A stretch of DNA of 43,399 nucleotides from an uncultured Gammaproteobacteria bacterium (GCA_913042085.1 CAJWKH010000003.1:1-43399), one strand, 5' to 3'. Shown: positions 8,296-43,399, counted from the first letter of the stretch. The notes: generated by a model not told the origin, from the letters alone. Numbers and translations: made by a program.

Positions 8296-8336
8296 TAGAT
8301 TTCTAATATAATTCATTAAAAAAAGGGGAGAAAAAA

Positions 8337-9644: not shown

Positions 9645-9652
9645 AAAAAGTC

Positions 9653-9688
9653 ACGAGGTCGGTTAGTGGTACCGACCTCGTTTTTTTT
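9653..9688 (+). terminator. Rho-independent terminator after DmdA/GcvT-like gene
   Basis: acgaggtcggt-tagtggt-accgacctcgt followed by a T-run. Confidence 0.95.
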
Positions 9689-9793
9689 CAATACCATATT
9701 CCTAAATTTCTTTAAGAAGATTCACTTTACATTCTTTAATTCTTGTTTTTACATAGGCAGACTCACCATTATTTAATTATTGGAAATTAATTA

Positions 9794-10588
9794 ATGAAAC
9801 ATGTTAAGAACTTAAAAATAGTAATCACGGCGGGAGCATCAGGTATTGGTTCTGAGATAGCCATGATTCTTTCACAGGCCGATGCTAAAGTGATTATTTG
9901 CGATAAAGATCAAGAGGTTCTTGATCAATTCTCTAAAAATAACCCTGAAATAATCACCTTAAAAGCTGATGTATCGCGTGAAGAAGAAGTGGCATCTTTT
10001 TTTAATGAAATAAAAGACCATTTTGGAGAAATTAATGCTCTCATCAATAATGCAGGTATTGCGGGACCATCGGCTAAGTTAGAAGACACTAATTTTAATG
10101 ATTGGAAGAATACATTAAGTGTAAATTTAAATGGAACATTTCTAAGCACTAAATCAGCAATTCCTCTTTTAAGATCTGCAGGTGGAGGATCTATTATAAA
10201 TATTGGTTCAACCTCTTCATTCATGGGCACTCCTCTACGATCTTCATACTCGGCAACAAAATGGGGGTTGATAGGTTTAACTAAAACTTGGGCCATGGAA
10301 TATGGCGAGGATAATATTCGTATTAATACTATTTGTCCTAGCTCGGTAAACGGTGAGCGTATTGAACAAGTCATAGAACGAGAAGCCAAGTATCGAAGTG
10401 TTTCACCAGAAGAAATTAAGGCTGCCTATTTAAGTCAAACATCAATGAAAACCTTTATTGATGCAGAAGAGATTGCCGGAATGATAGTGTATTTATTATC
10501 TCCTTTAGCAAGAAAGATTACAGGACAAATGCTTGCTATTGATGGCCACACAGAAAGCCTTTCGATGATTAATAAAGAAGATGATTAG
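9794..10588 (+). CDS. Short-chain dehydrogenase/reductase (SDR)
   Basis: TAGASGIG cofactor motif, NNAG, catalytic Ser (IGSTSS) and YSATK; C-terminal DGH. Confidence 0.93.
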   Translation: MKHVKNLKIVITAGASGIGSEIAMILSQADAKVIICDKDQEVLDQFSKNNPEIITLKADVSREEEVASFFNEIKDHFGEINALINNAGIAGPSAKLEDTNFNDWKNTLSVNLNGTFLSTKSAIPLLRSAGGGSIINIGSTSSFMGTPLRSSYSATKWGLIGLTKTWAMEYGEDNIRINTICPSSVNGERIEQVIEREAKYRSVSPEEIKAAYLSQTSMKTFIDAEEIAGMIVYLLSPLARKITGQMLAIDGHTESLSMINKEDD

Positions 10589-10657
10589 AATGAAATTAAA
10601 AGTTTGGACAAGTTATTTTCAGTTAAAGTTACTGTATGAAAAGAGGGGAGGTTTGCT

Positions 10658-11566
10658 ATGCCATTAGAAATAAAATCTAATATTTTTATTACTTGTGCGA
10701 TTACTGGATCAGGCAATACGCAAGAGCGAAGTTCAAATGTCCCTCGCTCACCAAAACAAATTGCTGATAGTGCTATTGCAGCAGCTAAAGAGGGTGCTGC
10801 TATTGTGCATTGCCATGTACGAGATCCTGAGACAGGAGCTCCTTCTCGAGATCCAGCCCTTTACCGAGAATTAACTGACCGTATTAGAGACTCAAAAACT
10901 GATGTTGTTTTAAACCTCACATCAGGCATGGGAGGAGATATGTTCTTTGGCCCGCCATCAGCACCACTGCCCCTAAAAAATGATACGGATATGGGAAGTG
11001 CAGAAAGTAGGATGGAGCCTATTGCTGATTGCTTACCTGAAATATGCACCTTAGATTGTGGAACGATGAATTTTGGGGAAGGAGATTATGTGATGACTAA
11101 TACCCCTGATATGTTAAGGACTATGGGTAGAATGATGACAGAACTAGGGATTAAGCCTGAAATTGAAGCATTTGATACAGGCCATCTATGGTTTGCTAAG
11201 CAGTTAGTTGAAGAGGGCATTATAGAGAATCCTGCCTTAGTTCAGCTCTGTATGGGTATACCTTGGGGCGCTCCTAATGATTTAAATACCTATATGGCTA
11301 TGGTTAATAATATCCCAAGCGATTGGAACTGGTCTTCTTTTTCAATTAGCCGTGATCAGATGCCTTATGTCGCTGCATCTGTTTTGGCAGGAGGAAATGT
11401 ACGCGTTGGTTTGGAAGATAATATTTGGTTAGAAAAAGACGTATTAGCTACAAACGAATCCTTAGTACATAAGGCCACTACTATTATTGAAGCTATGGGT
11501 TCAACAATTATGAATCCGCAACAAGTTAGAAACCTTTTAGGCCTAACCAAACGCGAACCTCGATAA
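10658..11566 (+). CDS. Beta-keto acid cleavage enzyme (BKACE, DUF849), probable 3-dehydrocarnitine cleavage enzyme
   Basis: 'ITCAITGSGNTQERSSNVPRSPKQIADSAIAAAKEGAAIVHCHVRDPETGAPSRD' (metal-binding HCH) and 'NLTSGMGG' are BKACE family; substrate inferred from the adjacent carnitine dehydrogenase. Confidence 0.88.
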   Translation: MPLEIKSNIFITCAITGSGNTQERSSNVPRSPKQIADSAIAAAKEGAAIVHCHVRDPETGAPSRDPALYRELTDRIRDSKTDVVLNLTSGMGGDMFFGPPSAPLPLKNDTDMGSAESRMEPIADCLPEICTLDCGTMNFGEGDYVMTNTPDMLRTMGRMMTELGIKPEIEAFDTGHLWFAKQLVEEGIIENPALVQLCMGIPWGAPNDLNTYMAMVNNIPSDWNWSSFSISRDQMPYVAASVLAGGNVRVGLEDNIWLEKDVLATNESLVHKATTIIEAMGSTIMNPQQVRNLLGLTKREPR

Positions 11567-11583
11567 TTATTTTTTGCTTATAA

Positions 11584-12996
11584 ATGATCAAGTCTGAGGA
11601 AAAGACACAGTTTGCTGTTATTGGAGGTGGAGTTATTGGCGGTGGCTGGGTCGCCAGGTTCCTATTAATGGGTTTTGATGTAAAAGTTTTTGATCCTGAC
11701 CCTGAAGCCGAACGAAAAATTAATTTAGTGATTGAAAATGCTCGTCGCTCACTGCCTGGTTTATTTGAATACCTATTACCTGATGAAGGATCTTTGATGG
11801 TTTGCTCCAATATAGAGGAGACTGTCGAGGACGTTCAATGGATTTGTGAGGCAATACCTGAACGCTTAAATTTAAAACAGGAAGTTTTTGCAGAAATACA
11901 AGCTCACTGCTCTATGGATGCAATCATAGCTTCGTCTGCATCAGGTTTTAAGCCTTCTGAGCTTCAATTCATGTCATCGAATCCAGAACAAATTATTGTT
12001 GCGCATCCTTTTAATCCGGTTTACTTAATTCCATTAGTTGAATTAGTAGGAAATTCTAAAACCACGGAAAAAGCAGCCACGATATTGAAGCAATTAGGTA
12101 TGCACCCTTTAACCGTTCGTAAAGAGATTGATGCCCATATAGCAGATCGTTTACTTGAAGCAGTGTGGCGGGAGGGTCTTTGGCTAATAAATGATGGTGT
12201 AGCTACTACAAAAGAAATTGATGACGCTATTCGTTATGGCTTTGGTTTGCGATGGGCTCAAATGGGTATGTTTGAAACTTATAGAATAGCAGGCGGTGAA
12301 GATGGTATGGCGCATTTTATTCAACAATTTGGCCCTGCATTAAAATGGCCGTGGACAAAACTCACGGATGTGCCAGAGTTATCTGAAGAATTAACTAAAA
12401 AGATTGCTCAGCAATCTGATCAGCAGTCAGGCCATTATTCAATTACTGAGCTGGAACGTATTCGTGACGACAATCTAGTCGCTTTGATGAGATCACTTAA
12501 GACCAAAGACTGGGGCGCTGGAAATCAACTTAATCAGGTAGACACATTATTGGAAAGCACATCGGTTAAGCCTTCTGAAATACTTACTCAACGATCGCCT
12601 GTGCTGACCTCTAATCGTGTTGTACCTACCAGTTGGCTTGATGCTAACGGTCATATGAATGATAGCCGCTATGCTGAAGTATTTTCTAAGGCCAGTGATA
12701 TCATTTTGCGTCGTATAGGATCTGATGTTGGCTATATTGCTAAAGGTTTCAATTACTTTACCGTTGATATGCAAATTAGTTATCTAAACGAGTGCCTTGC
12801 TGGAGATAAAATAACCGTTTTTACTAGCATTCATTTAGCTGAAGGAAAAAAATTAGATTTAAGACATGAAATGAAAAACGCCCAAGGAACAGTTTGCGCT
12901 ACATGCACCCAGTTTTTAATTCATGTTGATTTGGCTTCACGTAAATCTTGCTTACCCGTCGAGCCTGTTGCCGGCATATTGATGGCATTAGACTAA
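11584..12996 (+). CDS. lcdH: L-carnitine 3-dehydrogenase fused to hotdog (betainyl-CoA-type) thioesterase
   Basis: N-terminal 3-hydroxyacyl-CoA-dehydrogenase-type NAD motif 'AVIGGGVIGGGWVARFLLMGFDVKVFDPD', 'AHPFNPVYLIPLVELV'; C-terminal hotdog region 'VPTSWLDANGHMNDSRYAEVFSKASD...FTVDMQISYLNECLAGDKITV'. Confidence 0.87.
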   Translation: MIKSEEKTQFAVIGGGVIGGGWVARFLLMGFDVKVFDPDPEAERKINLVIENARRSLPGLFEYLLPDEGSLMVCSNIEETVEDVQWICEAIPERLNLKQEVFAEIQAHCSMDAIIASSASGFKPSELQFMSSNPEQIIVAHPFNPVYLIPLVELVGNSKTTEKAATILKQLGMHPLTVRKEIDAHIADRLLEAVWREGLWLINDGVATTKEIDDAIRYGFGLRWAQMGMFETYRIAGGEDGMAHFIQQFGPALKWPWTKLTDVPELSEELTKKIAQQSDQQSGHYSITELERIRDDNLVALMRSLKTKDWGAGNQLNQVDTLLESTSVKPSEILTQRSPVLTSNRVVPTSWLDANGHMNDSRYAEVFSKASDIILRRIGSDVGYIAKGFNYFTVDMQISYLNECLAGDKITVFTSIHLAEGKKLDLRHEMKNAQGTVCATCTQFLIHVDLASRKSCLPVEPVAGILMALD

Positions 12997-28697: not shown

Positions 28698-31600
28698 ATG
28701 AAAATTAAATCAATTTTATTTATTATTTTTGGTTCTTCGTTACTACTTTCTGGCAACTTATTTTCAGCTGATGAAGAGGAAGAAAATGCTAGAGATAGAG
28801 GCGGTATTGAAGAAATAACTGTAACTGCGGAGAAAAGAACATCCACCGTTTCTGACACTTCAATGTCAATTACGGCTTTTGATTCTTCTTTGCTAGAAGA
28901 TTTAGGTATGCAAGGTGCAGATGATCTTATGGATCAATTGCCTGCTACTACAAGAGACGCTTATGACGTAAGAATTAGAGGAGTTGGAAGAAACTTTAGG
29001 GCTCTTGGTGGGGACCCGGGCGTAGCGACTTATTACAACGGTGTTTATTCACCAGACTTTGGTATTGCTGCTTCTGAAAGCTATCTTTACGACGTTGAAC
29101 GTATTGAGGTTTTAAGAGGACCTCAAGGAACTCTATACGGACGTAACTCAATAGGTGGTGCAATTAACTATTTAACCAAGAAACCTAGCTTTACTGGAGA
29201 AGGTGAAGTTAGAACAGTGCTTGGTGATTACGGCATGGAGCAATATTTCCTACTAAGTTCAGCTCCAATAACAGAAAACCTAGCTTATAGATTCAATGCT
29301 TCTTCGGTTGAAAGAGATGGAGTACAGAAAAACCCTGGAACTGGACCAGACGCTAACTCATGGGATGATGAAAACATCGTGATGACTTTGCTTTGGAATA
29401 TTAACGATGACATGAACTTTCAAATCAGAGCCAATGACAGAATAGCTGATCGTATTATTAATAGCAGAGTTCTTCTTAATGAAGGATACGGAGCTAACAG
29501 AGGTACAAGAGATACTGCGAACGCTGTATACGGTTTAAGAAAGGTTACATCGACTACTCCAGGCGCCATCAAATTTGTTAATACAATTACAGGTGTTACT
29601 GCTTACGGTGCTCCTAGAAGAGCAGGTGTGGACCAAGTTGGTTTCCCTTGGAGATTAAATCCTATGTATGGAAGAAGCGATGCTCCTAATATCGTAGGAA
29701 CTTTTCAAGTAGATAATAACCACGATACAAATTGTGAAGATTTCCCTTATGGACCTCCTGCTTGCGACTCTCAGCACGTAAAATTTGATCAAAGAGGTAT
29801 TCAAGGAAAATACGAATGGGATATCAATGAAGACACTACCTTAACCTATCTTTATGGAATGGTAGACTTTGAATACATGTTCAACTATGACATAGATGAC
29901 ACAAATAACTCTCAATTCTCTGACTACAGATCAACAGTTTTAGAAGATGTTCACATGATAACTCATGAAATTAATATCAACTGGATGTTGGGTGAAAACG
30001 TAGAAGTGACTTCAGGTGTATTCTTCATGGATGAGAATAGGCAGCAAAATTATTCATTAAGTAATAACTCTCCTTATATTTTAAATGCAGCTAATTACGG
30101 ATTATTGGATACTCCTTTATCGACTGTAACTGCTTTAACTGGCATTCCACTAGGCTTTGCACCAAGTGTCATGGCTATATTAGGATGGCCAAATGATGCC
30201 TTAACACCCCATGTTAGAAATGGTGACGCTCCTTTAGGTTCAACTATTTCTGGAAGGTGGTCAGGAGATAATAGCGGAGCGGTTTACCGTCATAAGAATG
30301 AAGTACAGACAGATGCCGTTGCATATTTCACACAAGGAACATGGCAAATCAATGATGAGTTTGCATTAGTTTTAGGAGCTAGATACGCGGAAGATGAGAA
30401 GGAAGCATTGGAAGTAAGAGGAGGTTACGCTGAGCTATACGCTAGTGCCGTAGCTGGATTCTTACCGGTTGTAAACCTGTTAGCAGGACAACCTTACATT
30501 CCACTTGGTCCTGACGCTACTGCTGTGGCTCACACTAACGTTGCAATGGGAAATGCAGTGTTTAAGTTTGATCCTGCCTTGGTAGCTTTATACTCTCAAT
30601 ACGCAGCCTTAGGCTTGGTACCGGCTGGTGCGGTTTATCCATTGTCTTTGGATACAACTGATGTTTTAACACCTACTTGTGCTATTACAGCAGAAACTTG
30701 TGCAACTCCTTTAAGAGTAGGGCAAGGTATTCCTTATAGCTATACAAGTAAAATAGGTAATTCTGATACATGGAGTGATACCAACTTTAGAATAAATCTG
30801 GACTATTCTCCTAATGATTACCAACTTTACTACTGGTCAGTAACCACAGGTTACAGGTCAGGTGGTTACGCTTTAGGTGTCTCAGGACAGCGTGATGACG
30901 CTAGGGATGCAAATGGAATACCAAATGGAACCGGTCAAGTGCTAGTCTCTTATGACAAAGAAGAAGTAAGCGCTGTAGAATTTGGCTATAAAGGTTTACA
31001 TCTTGACGATACTCTTCAAGTATTCGCTTCGATTTATCATTACGACTACGACGGTTATCAAGATGAATTAGAGCAATTTGATCCAATCAGAGGATCGGGA
31101 GCTAATTTCGTTTCAAATGCTAATGGAATAACTAACCAAGGTTTTGAAATTGAAATGAACTACGCCGCGTCTGATAGGTTGACTATAGCAGGTAACTTCA
31201 GTTTTACTGAAACTGAATACGGTGAAGATTACTTAGTCTTTATGACTGATGATCCTGTTAATCCAGTACCTGTTTTTGGAAGCTGTGAACAAGGATACGT
31301 GGGTTGTAGTGTTATTACAGAAGCACAAGCACAAGACTACACTGTAAACTTGAAGGGCGGACCTCTAAAAGGTATCCCTGAGCTTAAATATACTGTTAGA
31401 GCTACTTACGAAGTGGATTCTAGATGGGGTCCAATTTGGTTGTTAGCCAGTTACTCATACACAGGTGAATTCTCTGCTTCAGGAATTCAACGTGAACTTG
31501 ATGAGATCGATGCTAGAGACACAACTAACGTAAGTGCTTCTTGGTGGAGTGAAGACGGTAAGGTTAGTGTTAGAGCCTACGTCAATAACGTAATGGATAA

Positions 31601-31709
31601 TGATCAATATTATTCATTAGGTACAGGCGATCATGAAAATAACTTTGCTCAAACGGCAGGTGCTCTTTCACCAAGAACTATGGGTATAGATCTTAGATAT
31701 AAGTTCTAA
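28698..31709 (+). CDS. TonB-dependent receptor (paralog of the 20390 gene)
   Basis: 'IEEITVTAEKRTSTVSDTSMSITAFD', 'RIRGVGRNFRALGGDPGVATYYNGVYSPDFGIA', 'VERIEVLRGPQGTLYGRNSIGGAINYLTKKPS'; ends in Phe. Confidence 0.97.
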   Translation: MKIKSILFIIFGSSLLLSGNLFSADEEEENARDRGGIEEITVTAEKRTSTVSDTSMSITAFDSSLLEDLGMQGADDLMDQLPATTRDAYDVRIRGVGRNFRALGGDPGVATYYNGVYSPDFGIAASESYLYDVERIEVLRGPQGTLYGRNSIGGAINYLTKKPSFTGEGEVRTVLGDYGMEQYFLLSSAPITENLAYRFNASSVERDGVQKNPGTGPDANSWDDENIVMTLLWNINDDMNFQIRANDRIADRIINSRVLLNEGYGANRGTRDTANAVYGLRKVTSTTPGAIKFVNTITGVTAYGAPRRAGVDQVGFPWRLNPMYGRSDAPNIVGTFQVDNNHDTNCEDFPYGPPACDSQHVKFDQRGIQGKYEWDINEDTTLTYLYGMVDFEYMFNYDIDDTNNSQFSDYRSTVLEDVHMITHEININWMLGENVEVTSGVFFMDENRQQNYSLSNNSPYILNAANYGLLDTPLSTVTALTGIPLGFAPSVMAILGWPNDALTPHVRNGDAPLGSTISGRWSGDNSGAVYRHKNEVQTDAVAYFTQGTWQINDEFALVLGARYAEDEKEALEVRGGYAELYASAVAGFLPVVNLLAGQPYIPLGPDATAVAHTNVAMGNAVFKFDPALVALYSQYAALGLVPAGAVYPLSLDTTDVLTPTCAITAETCATPLRVGQGIPYSYTSKIGNSDTWSDTNFRINLDYSPNDYQLYYWSVTTGYRSGGYALGVSGQRDDARDANGIPNGTGQVLVSYDKEEVSAVEFGYKGLHLDDTLQVFASIYHYDYDGYQDELEQFDPIRGSGANFVSNANGITNQGFEIEMNYAASDRLTIAGNFSFTETEYGEDYLVFMTDDPVNPVPVFGSCEQGYVGCSVITEAQAQDYTVNLKGGPLKGIPELKYTVRATYEVDSRWGPIWLLASYSYTGEFSASGIQRELDEIDARDTTNVSASWWSEDGKVSVRAYVNNVMDNDQYYSLGTGDHENNFAQTAGALSPRTMGIDLRYKF

Positions 31710-31755: not shown

Positions 31756-31802
31756 GTGGCTTTCTTAAATAACTTCAGTAGAATCCGCATCCTTCATTGA
31801 TT

Positions 31803-33209
31803 ATGAAAAGAACTAAAATAATTTGCACTATCGGACCTGCTACTGAAAGTTTTTCTAGCCTGAAGAAACTTTATAAAGCAGGCATGAATGTTGCTAGATT
31901 AAATATGTCGCATTCTGACCATAAGTCAGCTAAGAAAATTATTGAAAGAATTAGAAATCTTAATAAAGAAGTAAAGACACCAGTTGGCATACTGCTAGAT
32001 ACTCAAGGACCTGAAATTAGGACTGGTGATTCAACTTCTATAGTAGATTTAACTCCAGGACAGTTAGTTTCCTTTACCGTGAGAGATGCAGTTGACGTAG
32101 AGACTACATCTATTCGAGTGAATTATGATGAGCTTATAGACAGTGTAAAGGTTGGAACACTTATCTCATTAGATAATGGTCTGCTAAATTTTAAAGTTTT
32201 AAAGAAACATAAAAATGAACTTGAATGCAAGGTAATAGATGGAGGGAAGTTAGGTAGCAAAAGACATGTGAATCTTCCTGGAATAAGGATAAATCTTCCT
32301 TCAATCACGGAAAAAGATAAGGATGATATAGCTTTCGGTCTAAAAGAGGATGTGGACTTTATTGCTTTGTCGTTTGTAAGGTCAGCAAGTGATATTAAAG
32401 ATTTAAGACTGCTATTAAAAAAGCAAATTAAGAAAGTAAAAATAATTTCTAAAATAGAAGATAGTGAAGGTTTAGCTAATATTGATGAAATCACTAAAGC
32501 TTCTGATGGAGTTATGGTTGCAAGAGGAGATCTGGGAATAGAAACAGATTTATTCAATTTACCAAATATACAAAGGAAGATAATGTCTAAATGTGCCAAG
32601 TATGGTGTTAGATCTATCGTAGCAACCCATCTTTTGGAGTCGATGATTGAAAATCCAACGCCAACTAGAGCTGAGGTAACTGATATTGCTAATGCAATAT
32701 ATGAAGGTGCTGACGCTGTTATGCTCTCTGGAGAAACAACCATAGGTAAATATCCAGTGGAGTGTGTGGATTTTATTTCTAAGATAGCCAATCAAACTGA
32801 AAAATATCGAACTTTAGGTTATGAATCTAAGTTAATTGTAGATACGGATTGGCAGCATTTAGGTATTGCAGCTAAATCAATGGCAGAATCAATTCAAGCT
32901 GATGGGATTATTGCCATAACTAGATCTGGACAAACAGCGGAAATAGTTTCAAATGCTAAACCTTTTATGATTCCAGTTTACGCATTTAGTAGTAATAAAA
33001 AAACTTTAAAGCAGCTTTCTTTAGCAGGTTCCGTAAACTCTTTTTATTCGAAAATGCATTCAGACCATGAAAAAAATGTTAACTCTGCATTAAAGATCAT
33101 AAAAAAAGAACTCAACCCTAATAAAAACCTAAAATTTATTGTTATTTCAGGTATTTTGTCTGAGAAATCTGCAGACTCTATCGAGATCAGAAATCTGATA
33201 ATCAAATAA
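31803..33209 (+). CDS. pyk: Pyruvate kinase
   Basis: 'KRTKIICTIGPATESFSSLKKLYKAGMNVARLNMSHSD', 'GVMVARGDLGIE', 'PTRAEVTDIANAIYEGADAVMLSGETTIGKYPVE'. ATG at 31803 preferred over the listed TTG at 31797. Confidence 0.96.
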   Translation: MKRTKIICTIGPATESFSSLKKLYKAGMNVARLNMSHSDHKSAKKIIERIRNLNKEVKTPVGILLDTQGPEIRTGDSTSIVDLTPGQLVSFTVRDAVDVETTSIRVNYDELIDSVKVGTLISLDNGLLNFKVLKKHKNELECKVIDGGKLGSKRHVNLPGIRINLPSITEKDKDDIAFGLKEDVDFIALSFVRSASDIKDLRLLLKKQIKKVKIISKIEDSEGLANIDEITKASDGVMVARGDLGIETDLFNLPNIQRKIMSKCAKYGVRSIVATHLLESMIENPTPTRAEVTDIANAIYEGADAVMLSGETTIGKYPVECVDFISKIANQTEKYRTLGYESKLIVDTDWQHLGIAAKSMAESIQADGIIAITRSGQTAEIVSNAKPFMIPVYAFSSNKKTLKQLSLAGSVNSFYSKMHSDHEKNVNSALKIIKKELNPNKNLKFIVISGILSEKSADSIEIRNLIIK

Positions 33210-33248: not shown

Positions 33249-34088
33249 ATGAAGCCATTCTCAATAGCTGCATTACAGCTAGATTTAGACTATTCAGACA
33301 ACTTTAATCTAGTTGTAGAAAAGACTTACCAAGTTGCTAAAAGGTACTCATGGGTTCAGATGATTGTTATGAGCGAACTAGCTGTTGGTGGTTCAAGTCG
33401 TTCATTGGAGTATTCTTTAGAAAAACAACTACCTAAATTCCAGGACATCGCAAAAGAATTAGGTGTTTGGTATATCCCTGGTTCATTTTATGATCATACT
33501 AAAGATGAAGTGAAAAACATTGCTCCCGTGATCTCTCCTAAAGGTGATCTAGTAGCTACTTGCACTAAAACTTATCCTTTCTTGCCTTATGAAACAGGAA
33601 TAACGTCAGGGGTAGAACCATGTGTTTTTGAGATACCGGAAGTTGGTATCTTTGGTATGCATATATGTTATGACCTATGGTTTCCGGAAACCAGTAGATC
33701 GCTTGCCATGAACGGTGCGCAGGTAATATTACATCCAAGCCTTACGGATACTTGTGACCGAGATGAAGAAAAAATAATGGCCAGAGCAACGGCTATACAG
33801 CAACAATGTTATTACATTGATGTTAATGCAGGTGGAAAACAAGGTAGAGGACTTTCTATTGCTTTAGGACCTGAAGGGGAAGTATTGAATGAATCTAGTG
33901 AAGCTGAAGATATTGTTTTGATTGAAATTGATACGAATAAAGTGGATAGAGTGAGAAAAAGAGGCATTAAGGGCTTGGGTCAGCCTTTGAAAAGCTTTAG
34001 AGACAACCCTGAACCTTTTACTAAAAAAACCACAAATAACGAATATCTTAAAGATTTAGGTGTTTTAGAAATTCCAAAAAAGGAATAA
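33249..34088 (+). CDS. Carbon-nitrogen hydrolase (nitrilase superfamily)
   Basis: Glu-Lys-Cys triad: 'MSELAVGG', 'CTKTYPFLPYE', 'HICYDLWFPETSR'. Confidence 0.9.
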   Translation: MKPFSIAALQLDLDYSDNFNLVVEKTYQVAKRYSWVQMIVMSELAVGGSSRSLEYSLEKQLPKFQDIAKELGVWYIPGSFYDHTKDEVKNIAPVISPKGDLVATCTKTYPFLPYETGITSGVEPCVFEIPEVGIFGMHICYDLWFPETSRSLAMNGAQVILHPSLTDTCDRDEEKIMARATAIQQQCYYIDVNAGGKQGRGLSIALGPEGEVLNESSEAEDIVLIEIDTNKVDRVRKRGIKGLGQPLKSFRDNPEPFTKKTTNNEYLKDLGVLEIPKKE

Positions 34089-34098
34089 ACTTTATTTA

Positions 34099-34917
34099 AT
34101 GAAAGCCTTAAGTATATTTATAGCTACATTCATATTTTGTTTTTCTTCTTATGGTGTTTCTGAAGAATTACCTAGAGGGCCAAATGGTAAGCCTGATTTA
34201 AATGGAGTTTGGCAAGTTTTAAATAGAGCAAACTATGATTTAGAAGCTCATCCTGCAAGAGCAGCAATGCAGTTAGTAGAAGGTCCTGTAGTGCCTGTTC
34301 CTCATCCTGATATTTTAGCTTTAGGTGCTGTGGGTTCTGTGCCAGCAGGACTGAGTGCCGTTGTTGGCGGTAAAATACCTTACACAAAGAAAGCCTTAAA
34401 ACAAAGAGATGAAAATAAAAATAATTGGTTAGAAAGAGACCCTGAAATTAAGTGTTATTTACCCGGAGTACCAAGAGCTACTTACATGCCATATCCTTTC
34501 CAAATATTTCATAGTGAATCTAGCTTCTTTATAGCTTATGAGTACGCAGGTGCTACTCGAAATATTTACTTAAAAGATCCTGGAGAACCTCCAGTTGATT
34601 CTTGGATGGGTCAATCTTGGGGGCAATGGGAAGAAGATTCTTTTGTAGTAGAAACAAAAGGCTTTAATGGTCAGACTTGGCTGGATAGATCAGGAAACTT
34701 TCACAGTGATCAATTAAAGGTTACTGAAAAGTACACTTTAATGAATGAACACACAATGCAATATGAAGCAACGATTGAAGATTCTGAGATCTTTACTCGA
34801 CCTTGGACTATACAAATGATGCTTTATAAGAAGGTAGGAAGGGATGCAGAATTACAGCAGTTTAAATGTGTGGAGTTTGTTGAGGAGCTTATTTATGGTG
34901 AATGGAGGGCAAAGTAA
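34099..34917 (+). CDS. Secreted protein of unknown function, 'PDLNGVW' family
   Basis: Signal peptide; 'GPNGKPDLNGVWQ'; 'GQWEEDSFVVETKGFNGQTWLDRSGNFHSDQLKVTEKYTL'. Shares motifs with the next gene. Confidence 0.8.
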   Translation: MKALSIFIATFIFCFSSYGVSEELPRGPNGKPDLNGVWQVLNRANYDLEAHPARAAMQLVEGPVVPVPHPDILALGAVGSVPAGLSAVVGGKIPYTKKALKQRDENKNNWLERDPEIKCYLPGVPRATYMPYPFQIFHSESSFFIAYEYAGATRNIYLKDPGEPPVDSWMGQSWGQWEEDSFVVETKGFNGQTWLDRSGNFHSDQLKVTEKYTLMNEHTMQYEATIEDSEIFTRPWTIQMMLYKKVGRDAELQQFKCVEFVEELIYGEWRAK

Positions 34918-34924
34918 TAGTCTG

Positions 34925-35893
34925 ATGAAAGTTCTTTTAATATTTATTATTAGTTTGCCATTAGTCTTATTGGGAGAAGAATACGAGGTGCCTAAGACTT
35001 GGTTTGGAGATCCTGATTTACAAGGAACTTGGACAAATGCAAGCTTAACTACTCTAGAAAGACCTGATGAGTATAAATCCCTAATCGTTAACGAAAGGGA
35101 CGCGTTGATTGCAAAGAGAATGACGAAACAATTTGTTGATGCCCAGGATAATTATTTAGAACCAGGAGAGACACCAAAAGCTGGTGCAGACGTCGGAGGG
35201 TATAACACTGCGTGGATGGATTTTGGAACTGAATTATTTAAAATTGATGGAGATTATAGAAGTTCTATTATTACATATCCTGAAGATGGTAAATTGCCTA
35301 GACGATGGATAGGTTGGGGAAAAGAAGCTATAGCTATAGCAAGAATGTTTAGGCAAGCAGATCATCCTGAATTAAGATCTTTAGGGGAAAGGTGCATTGT
35401 TGGGTTTGGTTCTAGTGGAGGACCGCCTATGTTAAACGTTCTTTACAATAATAATTACCAAATAGTCCAATCTCCCGGTTATGTCATGATTATGGTTGAA
35501 ATGAACCATGACGCTAGAATTATTAGACTTAATTCTGAGTTTAATCCAGACAACATGAGAAGGTGGTTGGGAGACTCTATAGGTTCTTGGGAAGGTAATA
35601 CTTTAGTGGTTAAAACAAAAAATCATCACCCACAGCAAAAATTTAGAGCAGCGATAAGGCATCAGATATTAATATCAGAAGGAGCGGAAATTACTGAAAG
35701 ATTTACTAGGGTAGGGAAGAATGAAATTCTTTATCAATTTGAAGTTAATGACAATGAAGCTTACAAAGATGTATGGAAAGGCGAGATGCCTTTAAGAGCA
35801 TCCCAAGAAAAAATTTATGAATACGCATGTCATGAAGGAAATTATGCCATGGCTAATATTTTGGCAGGCGCAAGAGCTGAAGAGGAGCAATAA
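34925..35893 (+). CDS. Secreted protein of unknown function, 'PDLQGTW' family
   Basis: The listed ORF starts at 34844 inside the previous gene; ATG at 34925 gives a signal peptide MKVLLIFIISLPLVLLGEEYEVPKTWFGDPDLQGTW. Shared 'GSWEGNTLVVKTKN' block. Confidence 0.82.
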   Translation: MKVLLIFIISLPLVLLGEEYEVPKTWFGDPDLQGTWTNASLTTLERPDEYKSLIVNERDALIAKRMTKQFVDAQDNYLEPGETPKAGADVGGYNTAWMDFGTELFKIDGDYRSSIITYPEDGKLPRRWIGWGKEAIAIARMFRQADHPELRSLGERCIVGFGSSGGPPMLNVLYNNNYQIVQSPGYVMIMVEMNHDARIIRLNSEFNPDNMRRWLGDSIGSWEGNTLVVKTKNHHPQQKFRAAIRHQILISEGAEITERFTRVGKNEILYQFEVNDNEAYKDVWKGEMPLRASQEKIYEYACHEGNYAMANILAGARAEEEQ

Positions 35894-35895
35894 TT

Positions 35896-36327
35896 ATGAG
35901 GAATATATTTAGTTACGTTGTTTTTTTAATTCTCTTCTCATTTAGTTATACAATTTATGGCCATCATGCTTTTACAGCAGAATTTGATGCTAATGCACCT
36001 ATTAACATCACAGGAAAGGTGGTAAAAGTTGAATGGATTAACCCTCACGCATGGGTGCATGTTGAAGTTCTAAAAGAATCAAAAGCAACCATATGGATGG
36101 TAGAAGGAGGCACTCCAAATACTCTGATTAGAAATGGACTTACTAAAAATTCTATCAAACCAGGAACTGTGATTAACGTTAGAGGCTATCAAAGCAAAGG
36201 GAAACTTTGTCGTCCTAGGTGCATAGCTAATGGAAGAGATATAACTTTTCCTGATGGCAGTAAAGTGTTTATGGGTTCTTCAGGAACTGGAGCACCCAGA
36301 GACGGTTCGGATCCAAAAGAAAGGTGA
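35896..36327 (+). CDS. DUF6152-like secreted protein
   Basis: Signal peptide then 'HHAFTAEFDANAPINITGKVVKVEWINPHAWVHVEV...WMVEGGTPNTLIRNGLTKNSIKPGTVINVRGY'. Confidence 0.78.
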   Translation: MRNIFSYVVFLILFSFSYTIYGHHAFTAEFDANAPINITGKVVKVEWINPHAWVHVEVLKESKATIWMVEGGTPNTLIRNGLTKNSIKPGTVINVRGYQSKGKLCRPRCIANGRDITFPDGSKVFMGSSGTGAPRDGSDPKER

Positions 36328-36752
36328 AGAATTTAGTTTTATTATTTTTCACATTAACTTTTTCTCCTTTTAATGTAGCAAGCGAAGATGAGCATGGCGA
36401 TATGCATGATTTTATGGCTCATCTCTTAACCCCTGCCTCCGAGGCCATTTGGGAGTCTTCCGGTTACGTTATAACGGAAGAGGGTGAGTTTAGTCTAGAA
36501 CCAACTAACGAAGAAGAATGGGAAAGAGTTTTATATGGTGCAAAGGTTATAACAGAGAGCGCCTCTTTGCTTAGCATCCCTTCAAGATCTAAAAATAGAA
36601 ATGAATGGATAGTTTTTGCGGGCCTTCTTGAAGGAGTAGGGCAGAAAGCTTTTGAGGCGGCGGAAAAAAAAGACGCTAATGCTTTATTTGAGATAGGGGC
36701 TGAACTTTATCAAGTATGCGTGGCTTGCCATCAAGTTTATATGAATGAATAA
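36324..36752 (+). CDS. Periplasmic class II (cytochrome c'-like) cytochrome c
   Basis: Signal peptide; helical protein with single C-terminal heme motif CVACH ('LYQVCVACHQVYMNE'). GTG start overlaps the preceding stop by 4 nt. Confidence 0.78.
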   Translation: MKNLVLLFFTLTFSPFNVASEDEHGDMHDFMAHLLTPASEAIWESSGYVITEEGEFSLEPTNEEEWERVLYGAKVITESASLLSIPSRSKNRNEWIVFAGLLEGVGQKAFEAAEKKDANALFEIGAELYQVCVACHQVYMNE

Positions 36753-36757
36753 GAAAT

Positions 36758-37336
36758 ATGCTTGATTTAGCCGTTTGGTTGTCTGAAACAGAATGGAGTA
36801 TAGCGTTACATGAGTCCTTGTACCTTTACCCTTGGATAGAATCAACTCACGTTTTATCTATTTGTTTGTTCTTCGGAACGTTATTGTTTGTTGATTTAAG
36901 GTTAACTGGCAAAGTATTCAAAAATCTTTCTATATCTGAAATGAATAGAAAAGTTTTACCGTTAACTATATTTGGATTTTTAGTTATGTCCGTAACAGGA
37001 CTATTATTATTTTATGCCATTCCAGTTAGGAATTACCAAAATATATTTTTCAGAATAAAAATGCTCCTAATAGTTATTGCGGGAATAAATGCTTTTTTCT
37101 TTCATAGAAGAATGTCTAAAGAAGCAAAGATTTGGGATAAAGATTCTTCTATACCTAAATCCATGAAGAATAGCGCTATAACATCTTTAGTTTTATGGTC
37201 TTCGGTGATAATTAGCGGAAGAATGATTGCATATAATTGGTTTGATTGCGACAGACAGCCCCAGCCTAGATGGATTAATGAATTAACTAGCTGTGAAGTT
37301 GATTACAGTCTTTTTGAGGGAATAGATGGTTTCTAA
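36758..37336 (+). CDS. DUF6644-like integral membrane protein
   Basis: 'YLYPWIESTHVLSICLFFGTLLFVDLRLTGKVF', 'RIKMLLIVIAGINAFFFHRRM'; several TM helices with conserved His. Confidence 0.7.
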   Translation: MLDLAVWLSETEWSIALHESLYLYPWIESTHVLSICLFFGTLLFVDLRLTGKVFKNLSISEMNRKVLPLTIFGFLVMSVTGLLLFYAIPVRNYQNIFFRIKMLLIVIAGINAFFFHRRMSKEAKIWDKDSSIPKSMKNSAITSLVLWSSVIISGRMIAYNWFDCDRQPQPRWINELTSCEVDYSLFEGIDGF

Positions 37337-37799
37337 AGAGTTAATAGATATTTTCTATGTATTAGAAGATACCTTCATAGGGGAGTATGTAAGGAGCTCT
37401 TTATGGCTTTTTCCAGTTATAGAAAGTTTCCATTTAATTGGCTTAGGTATATTAGGTGGATCTGTTGTCATAATGGACTTTAAGTTAATGAAATTAATTT
37501 TTAGAGGCACTAATAAAATTTACGTATTAGAACAAACCAAAAATTTTTTTATTTTAGGCCTCTCACTCTTAATCCTAACTGGTGTACCACTTTTTCTCTC
37601 TGAAGCAGTTAAATGTTATTACAGTCGTGCATTTTGGATAAAGATGATTGGTCTTGTAATTGGGGTGCTTTTTGTTTACTTTGCACGTAACCCTTTAATT
37701 GTTAAAAAAGAAGGAACAATTTTGATTCTTATAGGCTTTGTATCATTCTCTATCTGGACGGTGGTAGCAGCTTCAGGAAGATGGATTGGTTTCTCTTAA
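37326..37799 (+). CDS. DUF6644-like integral membrane protein (paralog of preceding gene)
   Basis: 'WLFPVIESFHLIGLGILGGSVVIMDFKLMKLIF' and terminal 'VVAASGRWIGFS'; overlaps previous CDS by 11 nt. Confidence 0.7.
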   Translation: MVSKELIDIFYVLEDTFIGEYVRSSLWLFPVIESFHLIGLGILGGSVVIMDFKLMKLIFRGTNKIYVLEQTKNFFILGLSLLILTGVPLFLSEAVKCYYSRAFWIKMIGLVIGVLFVYFARNPLIVKKEGTILILIGFVSFSIWTVVAASGRWIGFS

Positions 37800-37811
37800 T
37801 AACTGAATATT

Positions 37812-39152
37812 TTGAGTGCACAAAAGCTAACTCTTAAAACTCGTATTGGCTACGGAATAGGCGATATATCTATTTGTCTATACTGGAGTGGAGTTGGTTT
37901 ATACCTTCTTTATTTCTATACAGATGTAGTAGGCATTTCTCCTGCACTTGCAGGAGTTATATACGGGATTGGAATGATGTGGGATGCTCTTACAGATCCA
38001 TTTATGGGGTATTTAGCTGAAAGGACAAGAACAAAGTGGGGTGTCTATAGGCCTTATATTCTTTTTGGTAATCTGCCTTTAGCCATTTCCTTTTTTCTTT
38101 TATTTTGGGTACCACCATATGAAGGGACGGCTCTTTTCGTAATACTTTTATTAATAAATTTATTACACCGAACTTGCTTTACCATTGTTAGCGTTCCTTT
38201 TTCTTCATTAACTCCCAGGATAACTGCAGATAGCGAAGAAAGGACAAATCTTACTGGATTTAGAATGCTTGGAGCCCAAACGGGTACAAACTTAATGGCT
38301 CTATGTGCTTTTCCAATTATTTTTATGTTTGGTGAAGGGGATGAAGCTAAAGGATTTATTTACTTGGCTTTAATTGCTGGAGTTGTTGCCATGATGATTC
38401 ATGCTGTAACTCTTTATACTGTTAGAGAGCCTAGTACTAGCCAAGGAATTGATCGAGTTAGTGGAAGTTTAATAGAGACCGCTAAATCTATTGGAAAGAA
38501 TAAGCCTTTTTGGCTGGTTTTTTCTGCTACGCTCATAGTCGGTGTTACTACTATTTTCTTTGGGAACAACCTAGTTTACTTTACAAAATACGCTTTAGAT
38601 CTACATCAATATCAAGGGACTATTTTATTTACAAGCGGGATCATTTCTTTTGCTTCTATACCTGTTTGGTGGTGGATATCTAATAGAATTGGTAAGAGAA
38701 AGACCTGGTTAGTCTCATCTACCATCACTTTCTTTTGTTTATTGTTATTCTTTATCTATCCAATTCAAACCCTTCTAGAACTTTTAATTTTAGTTGCTTT
38801 GATAGGGGCAGGTTCAGGAGCAGGTGGCATTTTATTTTGGTCTATGTTGCCTGATACCATTGAGTACGGTGAAGTTAAAACAGGTATCAGAAGTGAATCA
38901 TCTTTGTATGGCTTTATGACATTTGCTCAGAAGGGTTCAATAGCGATAGCTATAGGCATATTAGGGTTTACTCTGAATTTCATTGGATTTGAACCAAATG
39001 AAGCACAAAGTGAACAAACGATAAGTTCTATGAAATCGATCATGAGTTTAATTCCTGCTTTGGGAGTAGCAATAAGCTTCGTAATAATTTATTTTTACCC
39101 TATTGATTCTGAGAAACATAAAGAACTTTTAGAGCAATTAAAAAACAAATAG
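37812..39152 (+). CDS. GPH-family (glycoside-pentoside-hexuronide:cation symporter) MFS transporter
   Basis: 'GYGIGDISICLYWSGVGLYLLYFYTDVVGISPALAGVIYGIGMMWDALTDPFMGYLAERTRTKWGVYRPYILFG' is GPH-type; TTG start. Confidence 0.9.
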   Translation: MSAQKLTLKTRIGYGIGDISICLYWSGVGLYLLYFYTDVVGISPALAGVIYGIGMMWDALTDPFMGYLAERTRTKWGVYRPYILFGNLPLAISFFLLFWVPPYEGTALFVILLLINLLHRTCFTIVSVPFSSLTPRITADSEERTNLTGFRMLGAQTGTNLMALCAFPIIFMFGEGDEAKGFIYLALIAGVVAMMIHAVTLYTVREPSTSQGIDRVSGSLIETAKSIGKNKPFWLVFSATLIVGVTTIFFGNNLVYFTKYALDLHQYQGTILFTSGIISFASIPVWWWISNRIGKRKTWLVSSTITFFCLLLFFIYPIQTLLELLILVALIGAGSGAGGILFWSMLPDTIEYGEVKTGIRSESSLYGFMTFAQKGSIAIAIGILGFTLNFIGFEPNEAQSEQTISSMKSIMSLIPALGVAISFVIIYFYPIDSEKHKELLEQLKNK

Positions 39153-39160
39153 GAAAAACA

Positions 39161-41158
39161 ATGACTAAGTGGGGAATTGCAGGAACAGGAATGATTGCTA
39201 AGTCGTTTGCGGAAGCATTAAAGGAAACAGATTCTGTTTTGCATGCTGTAGCCAGCACCTCAGGGAGGTCAGAAAAATTTGCTAATAATTATGAATGTTT
39301 AGCGTATGAAGGTTATGAACAGTTAATTAATGATCCTGATGTTCAAGCAATATATATAGCTACACCTCACCCTTCACATTTTGATATCGCTTTAAGCGCT
39401 TTAAAAAGTAATAAAGCGGTCTTGTGTGAGAAGCCCATGACTATGAATGCAACGCAAGCCATGATTCTCATCGATGCATCTAGAAAGAACAATACCCCGT
39501 TAATGGAAGCGTTCATGTATAAGTCTCACCCCCAAACAATAAAAATCTGTGAAATATTAAAAGAATCTTTTAAACCACCATTAACAATTGATGCAGAGTT
39601 TTGTTTTCAAGTAGAAGTACCTGAGTCACATAGACTAGTTAATAGAGAACTAGGCGGTGGGTCCATTCTAGACATCGGATGCTATCCAATGTCTATTTCA
39701 AGGTTAGCAGTTGGTAAAGTAAATGGAAAAGATTTCCTTAATCCAAATGGAATAGAGTGCGAATCAGAATTAAATTCGCAGGGCGTAGATTTAAATGCTC
39801 AAGCAAATCTAACTTTTGAAGACGGATCAACTGCTCATATTAAATCAGCAACCAACTTGGCTTCAGAAAGCACGGTAACAATAAAAGATGCTTCTAATAC
39901 ACTTATCATAAATCAACCTTGGCATTGCGGAGAATATACGGAAAGGGCATCCTCATTAGAGCTGCAATTAGGATCTCATGAATTTGAGACTATAGGGATA
40001 TCTACAGAGAAGGGTATTTACGCAATTGAAATAGAGCATTTTGAAGAGTTAATAGAAGCTGGGGATATAGAATCAAAGATCGTTCCTCATAATGACTCTC
40101 ACGGGAATATGATAGCGCTTGATCGCTGGAGAAAAGGCTCTGGGGTTTATTATGAGAGTGACAAAGGAGAAAATGTTACAGGCTCTTTATTTTCATTTGA
40201 TATAAAAGAGAATAGAAAAGAAATAAAGAGAGCTAATTTACCCGGAATAGAAAAAGATCTTTCTCGATTAGTTTTTGGATGCGATAACCAGTCAGATAGC
40301 AATCATGCTTTCGCCATGTTCGACCACTTTTATCTCAGTGGAGGCAATGTATTTGATACTGCCTATATATATAACAATGGAAAAAGTGATGGTTATTTAG
40401 GTAGATGGATAAATGCCAGAGGTTTAAGAGATGAAGTTGTTATCTTAGGTAAGGGTGCGCATACTCCAGATTGCTATCCCAATAAAATTAGACCACAACT
40501 AGAAGAAACTTTAGAAAGAATGGGTACTGACTACCTTGATATTTACTGCTTGCACAGAGATAACTTAGAAGTTCCAGTTAGTGAATTTATAGACGCTCTT
40601 AGTGAGCTAAAAGATGAAGGTCTAATTAATGTATTTGGAGGGTCGAATTGGTCTTTACCTAGATTTAAAGAAGCTATTGATTACGCAAATGAGAATAATA
40701 AGACACCTTTTTCAATGCTCAGCAACAATTTTAGTTTAGCTAGAATGTTAGAGCCAGTTTGGCCTGGTTGTTTTAGTTGTTCTGAAGAAGATTACAAGTC
40801 GTATCTAGAAGAACATCAGATAGCTATTTTCCCTTGGTCCAGTCAAGCGAGAGGTTTCTTTCTTGAGTCTCAAGAGTTTCAAGGATTACAACACGTTGCC
40901 GATCCTAACAAAGATGAACAAGATAGGGTTTGGACAAATGAAGAAAATCTAGAAAGACGAAGAAGATGTTTTCAAATGGCTCAAGAGAAAGGACTTGAAC
41001 CAATACAAATATCTTTAGCTTTTGTTCTGAATCAGCCTTTTCCAACGTTCCCTTTAATAGGTGCCAGGAATCTATTTGAAACTGAAAGCTCTTTAGAGGC
41101 CTTAAATTTAGACCTTTCTTCAGAAGAGGTTAATTGGTTAGATTTAAGCGAGAATTAA
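39161..41158 (+). CDS. Gfo/Idh/MocA oxidoreductase - aldo/keto reductase fusion
   Basis: N-term 'WGIAGTGMIAKSFAEAL', 'AVLCEKPMTMNATQA', 'GGSILDIGCYPM'; C-term AKR motifs 'VFDTAYIYNN', 'VILGKGAH', 'GTDYLDIYCLHRDN', 'GGSNW'. Confidence 0.9.
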   Translation: MTKWGIAGTGMIAKSFAEALKETDSVLHAVASTSGRSEKFANNYECLAYEGYEQLINDPDVQAIYIATPHPSHFDIALSALKSNKAVLCEKPMTMNATQAMILIDASRKNNTPLMEAFMYKSHPQTIKICEILKESFKPPLTIDAEFCFQVEVPESHRLVNRELGGGSILDIGCYPMSISRLAVGKVNGKDFLNPNGIECESELNSQGVDLNAQANLTFEDGSTAHIKSATNLASESTVTIKDASNTLIINQPWHCGEYTERASSLELQLGSHEFETIGISTEKGIYAIEIEHFEELIEAGDIESKIVPHNDSHGNMIALDRWRKGSGVYYESDKGENVTGSLFSFDIKENRKEIKRANLPGIEKDLSRLVFGCDNQSDSNHAFAMFDHFYLSGGNVFDTAYIYNNGKSDGYLGRWINARGLRDEVVILGKGAHTPDCYPNKIRPQLEETLERMGTDYLDIYCLHRDNLEVPVSEFIDALSELKDEGLINVFGGSNWSLPRFKEAIDYANENNKTPFSMLSNNFSLARMLEPVWPGCFSCSEEDYKSYLEEHQIAIFPWSSQARGFFLESQEFQGLQHVADPNKDEQDRVWTNEENLERRRRCFQMAQEKGLEPIQISLAFVLNQPFPTFPLIGARNLFETESSLEALNLDLSSEEVNWLDLSEN

Positions 41159-41403: not shown

Positions 41404-41433
41404 AAATCCCCGCCTTAGTGTGGGGATTTTTTT
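41404..41433 (+). terminator. Rho-independent terminator (+ strand)
   Basis: AAATCCCC-gccttagtgt-GGGGATTT followed by T-run. Confidence 0.92.
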
Positions 41434-41830
41434 ATTGTCTTGCCCCTTCACTATCAAAAATTCTTAAGTAGGTGAGTTGTTCATGATCAGAGTTATTCTT
41501 TACTTTGATGTAGTCACCTTCTTCAGCTAAGACAATATCTCCTGAAACAATTGAAAGTTCTGCTTTATGCTCAATACCAAAACTTGGATTAGTGCCATGA
41601 CCAGCTTCGTGGTTGGCGTATTCAATCACTTCCATTTGCCCTATCCCAGATAGAAAAACATAAACTACTTCTGACTCAATTAGCCTATGTCCTCCAGTAG
41701 AGCCTCCAGGTTTAATTACTGTCTTACCAGCAACTAATTTTCTTAATAAGTCATTGGTCCATGCCGAATAACCATTGCTTTCTTTTGAAAGGTTTTCACC
41801 AACTGAGAAGTTTTCGTATTTTTTAGCCAT
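41432..41830 (-). CDS. Cupin-domain protein
   Basis: 'VIKPGGSTGGHRLIESEVVYVFLSGIGQMEV...SIVSGDIVLAEEGDYIKVKNNSDHEQLTYLRIFD'. Confidence 0.82.
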   Translation of the reverse strand: MAKKYENFSVGENLSKESNGYSAWTNDLLRKLVAGKTVIKPGGSTGGHRLIESEVVYVFLSGIGQMEVIEYANHEAGHGTNPSFGIEHKAELSIVSGDIVLAEEGDYIKVKNNSDHEQLTYLRIFDSEGARQ

Positions 41831-41928
41831 AATTCTTCATAAAAAAAAGAAGCATTCTATCATCACTTCATCTTTGCTGTTTACTAACATGCAATATAAG
41901 ATGAAAATATATTGAAATAGGGGGATTT

Positions 41929-43399
41929 GTGAGAAAAAGAAAATTCTGGGGATGGGGTTATGCTGATGAATTACTTTCTGCAGAGGAAGAAAAGAATATT
42001 GATTCTAGAATAGCCAAAACCTTCCAGTTAGATGACATAGAAACTTTGCCTATACCTAAAGTCGAAGATATAGACTTACCTAAGCCTCGCCTAGTTGCTC
42101 CATCAACACTTGTAAAAGTTATATCTGAAGATAAAGAAGAAAGGCTTAATCACACTTACGGAAAATCTTTTCCTGACGCCGCTAGATCTTTATTAAGAGA
42201 TTTCTCTTCACCTCCTGATTTGGTCGCTTTTCCTAATACAGAGGATGAGCTTATCAATGTTATGGACTGGTGTGACGAAAGCAATATTGCAGTCATTCCT
42301 TATGGTGGTGGTTCAAGCGTCTGTGGAGGCGTAGAAACCCAAGTGGGCGATTCTTATTCAGGAGTTGTTTCTCTTGATTTAAGAAACTTAAATAAAATTA
42401 TAGAAATAGATAGGGAAAGCAGAAGTGCAAGAATACAAGCAGGTATCTTAGGGCCTGACTTAGAGTCTAATTTAAAGAAAGAAAATCTTACGATGAGGCA
42501 TTATCCCCAAAGTTTTGAATTTTCTACTTTGGGTGGGTGGATAGCTACACGTTCGGGAGGACATTATGCAACCCTATACACACATATAGACGACTTCGTT
42601 GAATCAACAAGAATGGTAACTCCATCGGGAGTTTTAGAAAGTCGAAGATTACCAGGATCTGGTGCTGGACCAAGCCCAGATAGATTAACTATAGGTTCTG
42701 AGGGAATATTAGGAGTAATCACTGAAGCTTCGATGAGACTGCAAGATCGACCTACCTTTAGGGCTTCAACGAGTGTTGAATTTGCTGATTATAAGGATGC
42801 CTTGAATGCTTTAAGACAGATAAGCCAATCAGGTTTATTTCCTGCTAATTGCAGACTGCTGGATAGTAGCGAAGCCGTGATGAATGGTGCAGGTGATGGA
42901 TCAAAGCACATCCTTATACTTGCATTTGAATCTGCTGATCACGATAAAACGGCTGCATTGAAAAGAGCATTAGAAATTTGCTCTGACAATAATGGATTAT
43001 ATGAAGAACCAGATAGTAATAAGAAAGATGCACATAGAACTGGATCTTCAGGAAACTGGAGAAGTAGTTTTATTAAAGCTCCTTACTTCAGGGAAAGCTT
43101 TACTAGGAGAGGAATAATTCAAGATACTTTTGAGACTTCGATTACCTGGGAAAGAGCGCATTCGTTTATAACAGAAATAAAAAGTGATATTTCTAAAACG
43201 ATAGAACAGATTTCAGGAAAGCCCTCTTTAGTAACTTGTAGGATAACTCATAGCTACCCTGATGGATTGGCTCCTTACTTTACATTTGGTGCCTTTGCTA
43301 AACCTTCCACAATGATTGATATTTGGAGAGAGATAAAACTAGCCACTAATGAAATATGTATTTCTAAAGGTGGTACTGTAACGCATCATCATGCAGTAG
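41929..43399 (+). CDS. FAD-binding oxidase, alkyldihydroxyacetonephosphate-synthase-like (3' truncated)
   Basis: GTG start after a GGGG run; 'MRKRKFWGWGYADELLSAEE', 'VIPYGGGSSVCGG', 'ARIQAGILGPDLESNLKKENLTMRHYPQSFEFSTLGGWIATRSGG', ends '...GGTVTHHHAV' at the window edge. Absent from the ORF track because no stop lies in the window. Confidence 0.93.
   Translation, partial: MRKRKFWGWGYADELLSAEEEKNIDSRIAKTFQLDDIETLPIPKVEDIDLPKPRLVAPSTLVKVISEDKEERLNHTYGKSFPDAARSLLRDFSSPPDLVAFPNTEDELINVMDWCDESNIAVIPYGGGSSVCGGVETQVGDSYSGVVSLDLRNLNKIIEIDRESRSARIQAGILGPDLESNLKKENLTMRHYPQSFEFSTLGGWIATRSGGHYATLYTHIDDFVESTRMVTPSGVLESRRLPGSGAGPSPDRLTIGSEGILGVITEASMRLQDRPTFRASTSVEFADYKDALNALRQISQSGLFPANCRLLDSSEAVMNGAGDGSKHILILAFESADHDKTAALKRALEICSDNNGLYEEPDSNKKDAHRTGSSGNWRSSFIKAPYFRESFTRRGIIQDTFETSITWERAHSFITEIKSDISKTIEQISGKPSLVTCRITHSYPDGLAPYFTFGAFAKPSTMIDIWREIKLATNEICISKGGTVTHHHAV

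Follow-up and report, generated by a model that had tools for sequence, protein, structure and literature searches.

The closest described systems are the CopC-CopD and YcnI-YcnJ copper importers (PMC13344008, PMC12362106), in which an exported metal-binding protein with an N-terminal histidine is paired with a membrane partner carrying an essential conserved histidine, and which support respiratory metalloenzymes, a feature that we count as shared. YcnJ, a fusion of CopC and CopD, requires both the N-terminal-His site and the membrane histidine (PMC13344008). A second group consists of the N-terminal-His metalloproteins recognised through signal-strapping (DUF4198, DUF6702 and the anglerases), in which signal peptidase exposes a histidine and metal is chelated, the anglerases being also joined to membrane permeases (PMC12537917). 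Four N-terminal-His protein classes have been shown to bind metals, DUF6152 being absent from the main text of that study, and the base rate at which secreted proteins have histidine in position 1 is 2.6% (PMC12537917). Here we describe a gene cluster at positions 33249 to 41158 of a 43,399-nucleotide stretch of DNA (the window) from an uncultured gammaproteobacterium of the SAR86 group (genome G000, 1.17 Mb, 74% complete), all of the closest hits falling in SAR86. We place the module tentatively in the same kind, an N-terminal-His metal protein with a membrane partner, in a gene setting without a described counterpart.

The conserved unit comprises only the middle six of nine genes, which encode two PDL proteins, a DUF6152 protein, a class II cytochrome c and two DUF6644 proteins, that is, four exported and two membrane proteins. 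Apart from the recognisable cytochrome, the core proteins are previously unstudied, and no open-licence paper was found that names DUF6152, DUF6644 or their accessions. Tentatively, and with some reserve, we read the six genes as a horizontally moving metallo-redox cassette of the cell envelope, in which a DUF6152-DUF6644 metal unit would serve PDL clients. The core features are the following:

34099-34917, plus strand: PDL1, secreted PDLNGVW-type protein of 272 aa, core gene 1, homologous to PDL2
34925-35893, plus strand: PDL2, second secreted PDL protein (PDLQGTW), 322 aa, core gene 2, with an orthologue in all complete SAR86 cassettes
35896-36327, plus strand: DUF6152 protein, core gene 3 (PF19649, 1.6e-28), predicted OB fold
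35962-35967, plus strand: His23-His24 codons, predicted mature DUF6152 residues 1 and 2 and candidate metal ligands from their conservation after the cleavage site
36046-36048, plus strand: His51 codon in an N-P-H motif (mature His29), second candidate ligand, its Pro-His being invariant in the 40-sequence alignment A1
36324-36752, plus strand: class II (cytochrome c'/c556-type) cytochrome c, core gene 4, with invariant C132, C135, H136 and Met31 and profile matches in the PDB
36758-37336, plus strand: DUF6644-a membrane protein with the invariant His31 of an ESxH motif, core gene 5 (PF20349, 5.5e-11)
37326-37799, plus strand: DUF6644-b membrane protein with invariant His36, core gene 6 (PF20349, 6.8e-26)

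Scanning a genome collection with DUF6644-b yielded 17 SAR86 loci and several from Acidobacteria. BLAST searches of these loci with the nine proteins recovered the order PDL1-PDL2-DUF6152-cytochrome c-DUF6644-a-DUF6644-b in the SAR86 loci, some contigs being incomplete and PDL2 being doubled in L014, L019 and L023-L025. The same families were clustered in the acidobacterial loci L026, L027, L028 and L031, the cytochrome gene adjoining but lying on the opposite strand in the last three. Related, partial cassettes were found on plasmids of pollutant-degrading sphingomonads (L089, L092, L095 and L096 among them), gene calls in high-GC loci being approximate; in Novosphingobium humi (L088), both DUF6644 genes and the cytochrome gene are divergent from PDL and DUF6152, and the cassette adjoins electron-transfer flavoprotein and beta-oxidation-type genes.

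The three outer genes behave differently. Nitrilase, GPH symporter and Gfo/Idh-aldo/keto reductase (AKR) fusion occur in one SAR86 arrangement only; there, a TonB receptor gene lies immediately upstream, and genes for a cupin, a flavin adenine dinucleotide (FAD) oxidase and a GH3 beta-glucosidase follow. Neither the other SAR86 arrangement (L013, L015-L018, L020, L021) nor the acidobacterial cassettes contain the three genes, so that membership in the module is not supported for the symporter and the fusion, which the earlier note on this DNA had counted as members, nor for the nitrilase. The module claimed there is indeed conserved and undescribed, with its boundary drawn too wide; overlooked in it were the mature His-His, the kinship of PDL1 and PDL2, the stand-alone DUF6152-DUF6644 pairs and the upstream TonB receptor. 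The other SAR86 arrangement instead carries an FMO-like flavoprotein, pseudoazurin, saccharopine-dehydrogenase-like and glyoxalase-like proteins, and a pyrroloquinoline quinone (PQQ)-propeller/cytochrome c gene convergent with the cassette. In L015, L017 and L018 (about 8.6-12.3 kb), this gene converges on the cassette with pseudoazurin at the other side, and the two may be redox partners.

Co-occurrence of the families was very strict. Within the SAR86 order (199 genomes), DUF6152 was found in 20 genomes and DUF6644 in the identical 20, always as one DUF6152 and two DUF6644 genes and always in the window genome's own family. Among 151 acidobacterial genomes of one class, 43 contained DUF6152 and 41 DUF6644, all 41 of the latter having both. 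The earlier note had named a failure of the families to co-occur elsewhere as the outcome that would speak against a module; they do co-occur, in 20/20 and 41/41 genomes. At 40 DUF6644 loci (one per genome), DUF6644 formed tandem pairs in 33, with DUF6152 in 29 and PDL in 23 within 5 kb and a cytochrome c' gene nearby in 4, and loci sampled through DUF6152 alone had PDL or DUF6644 within 1.5 kb in 61 of 65 cases. Twenty control stretches of 20 kb from the same kind of genome contained a single PDL gene next to a single DUF6152 gene, and DUF6644 in none of them (0.25, 0.25 and 0 per 100 kb of acidobacterial DNA, respectively). TonB receptors were found at 3.2 per 100 kb in module loci compared to 1.0 in the controls. 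The number of DUF6152 copies reached at least 49 per genome, as observed in each of the acidobacterial genomes G316, G469 and G470.

The most informative feature of the module is the mature His-His of DUF6152. In 140 of 141 complete DUF6152 proteins, two histidines follow immediately after the hydrophobic signal sequence, with Ala, Ser or Gly at position -1 in 139 of these 140. Across 40 diverse members, only H1, H2, G18, P28, H29 and G68 were invariant. By motif, DUF6152 thus shows the conserved histidine at mature position 1 that characterises the N-terminal-His/histidine-brace class, and its conservation (99%) exceeds that in DUF4198 (79%) and DUF6702 (65%) (PMC12537917). The window protein scored 99.1 bits with PF19649 (gathering cut-off 27), and AlphaFold2 predicted a structure (pLDDT 83.8) with OB-fold matches in the PDB, unlike the beta-sandwich of DUF4198, DUF6702 and the anglerases. 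No Pfam match to CopC was obtained for DUF6152, and the predicted fold is again OB and not beta-sandwich. The His-His and the Pro-His motif, on a predicted OB fold, are as expected of an N-terminal-histidine metal protein, the metal being probably copper.

Both DUF6644 proteins exceeded the PF20349 cut-off of 27 (43.3 bits for DUF6644-a and 91.7 bits for DUF6644-b). The family invariants are H31, G81, K101, W147, G154 and R155, which include one membrane histidine and one lysine. Pfam returned DUF6644, UPF0093 and DUF2214 for these proteins and no CopD. The match of DUF6644-a to UPF0093/HemJ was weak (1.3e-4, 22.7 bits with a cut-off of 34.2). DUF6644 resembles HemJ in size and in having a histidine in the first and a lysine in the third membrane segment at comparable spacing, but it is devoid of the other HemJ invariants and the hhalign probability was just 20%; with a score below threshold, kinship to HemJ is left as a suggestion. 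No ordinary HemJ was found in G000, the sole UPF0093-like match being DUF6644-a itself, which may mean nothing as the genome is 74% complete.

In the cytochrome, C132, C135 and H136 of the CxxCH motif and the helix-A Met31 were invariant in 18 sequences. Searched as a single sequence, the window cytochrome had no Pfam or NCBIfam match; unlike in other class II cytochromes, its N-terminal half is too diverged for recognition. Like those proteins it has a C-terminal CxxCH, and the family profile matched cytochrome c' structures in the PDB (best E 0.0035). An axial methionine in class II cytochromes is taken as a mark of c556-like electron transfer, and the invariant Met31 suggests a c556-like six-coordinate electron carrier and not a gas-binding cytochrome c'. 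Other c-type cytochromes adjoin acidobacterial copies of the cassette, and PQQ-cytochrome c and pseudoazurin genes adjoin SAR86 cassettes. An unannotated relative of the cytochrome was also seen on plasmid pDC01 of Rhizorhabdus wittichii (L094:12962-13345), in an island with CusA/CzcA, CusF-like and mercury resistance genes.

PDL1 and PDL2 had no match in Pfam or NCBIfam. Since the profile of each matches members of the other, they form one superfamily, with invariant Gly, Trp and Asp, near-invariant Cys119 and Cys257 in PDL1, and conserved Cys158 and Cys303 in PDL2. Two PDL genes are present as had been read earlier, though not as a PDLNGVW pair, the motif of PDL2 being PDLQGTW; its start was corrected to the ATG at 34925. 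The predicted PDL structure reached a pLDDT of 82.5, and sequence and profile searches of the PDB with PDL, DUF6152 and DUF6644 gave nothing credible.

The smallest form of the unit, a DUF6152 gene and then a DUF6644 gene, occurs by itself in some Acidobacteria and alpha-, beta- and gammaproteobacteria, also in genomes with a single copy. Metal- or heme-related neighbours of two-gene units include DUF411 (L033), FecCD ABC transporters (L034, L036) and CtaA-CtaB-DUF420 (L158). In the last case (acidobacterial genome G429, L158:6680-14059), the pair lies at the end of a run of CtaA, CtaB and DUF420 (CtaM) genes that is preceded by genes for ferrochelatase, globin and CcmC; DUF420, or CtaM, is required for assembly of heme-copper oxidases (PMC13344008).

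As to descent, a FastTree phylogeny of DUF6152 placed SAR86 in a single clade (support 1.0) nested among acidobacterial cassette sequences (0.92, 0.85), other gammaproteobacterial members being only 22-29% identical. Because the SAR86 clade lies inside Acidobacteria, the cassette was probably acquired horizontally. The two DUF6644 proteins of the window share 24% identity with each other and 51% and 43% with their respective counterparts in L027; the pair therefore predates the transfer.

In the window, all nine open reading frames lie on the plus strand, at successive spacings of 10, 7, 2, -4, 5, -11, 12 and 8 nucleotides. Much of what had been noticed earlier from the sequence was borne out here: the nine packed same-strand genes, the overlaps at 36324/36327 and 37326/37336 (the spacings of -4 and -11 nucleotides), the four secreted proteins (four N-terminal signal sequences are visible, as judged from an AxA-type motif and hydrophobicity), and the assignments to DUF6152, DUF6644 (twice) and class II cytochrome c. 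The genes outside the core are:

28698-31709, plus strand: TonB-dependent receptor with plug/barrel sequence, probable first gene of the ancestral operon
31797-33209, plus strand: pyruvate kinase, recognised by sequence, between receptor and nitrilase and not at that position in L009
33249-34088, plus strand: nitrilase-superfamily carbon-nitrogen hydrolase (PF00795 CN_hydrolase, 1.4e-22), accessory, confined to one SAR86 arrangement
37812-39152, plus strand: GPH-family symporter (TIGR00792; MFS_2/GPH 9.4e-99), accessory, in some SAR86 loci only, TTG start uncertain
39161-41158, plus strand: Gfo/Idh/MocA-aldo/keto reductase fusion (PF01408 GFO_IDH_MocA, 3.7e-24; PF00248 Aldo_ket_red, 6e-53), accessory, one SAR86 arrangement only

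The symporter scored 341.7 bits with TIGR00792 (NCBIfam cut-off 231.35). The receptor directly precedes the nitrilase gene in L009, L011 and L023-L025, pyruvate kinase being inserted in the window genome, and the operon start probably lies upstream of 33249, at the receptor. Beyond the operon (41432-43398) follow a small cupin gene on the minus strand and an alkyl-DHAP-synthase-like FAD oxidase, an order kept in L009, L012 and L014, where an HD-type protein and a GH3 beta-glucosidase lie further on. A distant run at 4066-12996 looks, on reading the sequence, like a carnitine/betaine catabolic cluster with a BCCT transporter, a dimethylglycine-dehydrogenase-like flavoprotein, a GcvT-like protein, an SDR, a BKACE-type enzyme and a 3-hydroxyacyl/carnitine dehydrogenase fused to a thioesterase.

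What the data establish is the composition, order and co-occurrence of the core genes, with a probable horizontal descent, and the conserved residues and their place after the cleavage site; metal binding, electron flow, the client role of PDL and the substrate are inferred. DUF6152 would be exported and cleaved just ahead of His-His, and would bind a metal, most likely copper, through the N-terminal histidine and that of the Pro-His motif on an OB fold. DUF6644 would be its dedicated partner in the inner membrane, taking metal or electrons through the invariant membrane histidine as CopC hands copper to CopD; that the unit may work in this manner is suggested because YcnJ needs the same pair of features. 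The PDL proteins may be periplasmic substrate-handling clients of DUF6152, the compound entering via the neighbouring TonB receptor, and the c556-like cytochrome would carry electrons. The GPH symporter and the Gfo/Idh-AKR fusion probably take up and process the product in this SAR86 lineage. A metal unit serving substrate-specific periplasmic chemistry in the extended cassette is favoured because of the many paralogues, the PDL partners, the TonB receptors and the recurrent cytochromes.

Several observations nevertheless weigh against this reading. The two-gene pairs of Paracoccus and S. meliloti, among others, have no metal-related neighbour, and the CtaA-CtaB-DUF420 adjacency was seen in one genome only, the heme-operon context being not conserved in the relatives in which it was sought. 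The N-terminus of DUF6152 was modelled with moderate confidence (pLDDT 73), and DUF6644 bears a weak likeness to the heme protein HemJ. For PDL no known fold was matched, a Foldseek search of PDL1 in the PDB returning nothing at E<=0.001 and just weak lipocalin-like barrels. Finally, the highest DUF6152 copy numbers are too many for plain copper housekeeping.

In one alternative, which we regard as unlikely, the module would carry out redox catabolism and have no special metal site. PDL enzymes or carriers would oxidise a substrate of glycoside, aromatic or steroid-like nature, electrons would reach quinone through the cytochrome and a heme-b pair of DUF6644 proteins, and DUF6152 would be an assembly or lipid/ligand-binding OB protein. 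The enrichment of TonB receptors and the invariant cytochrome methionine fit such a pathway, as do the genes that mark the two SAR86 arrangements (GH3, GPH and Gfo/Idh in the first; the FMO-like flavoprotein, pseudoazurin and PQQ-cytochrome c in the second) and, in Novosphingobium, a GH39-like gene and genes of the beta-oxidation type; yet the His-His in 140 of 141 proteins and the DUF6152-DUF6644 pairs devoid of PDL and cytochrome would be left unexplained. A single glycoside pathway is disfavoured as the core function, the other SAR86 arrangement having no GPH, Gfo/Idh-AKR or GH3 gene.

Copper acquisition or metallation alone, with DUF6152-DUF6644 as an analogue of CopC-CopD or YcnI-YcnJ supplying oxidases and cuproproteins, PDL and the cytochrome as clients or bystanders, and no dedicated catabolic role, appears rather improbable. 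The pair standing alone in single-copy genomes, its DUF411, CtaM-operon and FecCD neighbours, the cytochrome relative in the Cus/Mer island of Rhizorhabdus and the two requirements of YcnJ (PMC13344008) are consistent with it, but metal neighbours were present at just about 5 of 14 two-gene sites and catabolic neighbours occur in sphingomonads. As a full explanation it is disfavoured by genomes with 49 or more copies, most of them with PDL adjoining. Differences to the CopC-CopD and YcnI-YcnJ systems also include the missing Pfam matches, the predicted OB fold, two histidines in place of one, the attached PDL and cytochrome genes, and massive paralogue expansion. Heme or cytochrome biogenesis, with DUF6152 using its histidines to handle heme, as CcmE does, and a HemJ-related DUF6644 providing heme for maturation of adjacent cytochromes, is highly improbable, as the low hhalign probability, the poorly conserved heme-gene context and the many pairs without a nearby cytochrome outweigh the marginal UPF0093/HemJ match, the CtaA, CtaB, ferrochelatase and CcmC neighbours in one acidobacterial locus and the recurrence of cytochromes.

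PDL and DUF6152 might even represent a new class of secreted copper enzyme, in which an OB fold with an N-terminal His-His copper site is paired with PDL and powered by a heme-b DUF6644 pair via the c556 cytochrome, with dozens of substrate-specific versions in Acidobacteria; we consider this bolder proposal doubtful.

SAR86 rank with the most abundant bacteria of the surface ocean, as Acidobacteria do in soil. An undescribed envelope cassette shared by both, with paralogues numbering in the dozens in certain soil genomes, probably fills a sizeable gap in what is known of their organic-matter or metal processing. The perfect co-occurrence of DUF6152 and DUF6644 points to DUF6644 as the partner of DUF6152, and the mature N-terminal His-His makes the long-uncharacterised DUF6152 family directly testable as metalloprotein.

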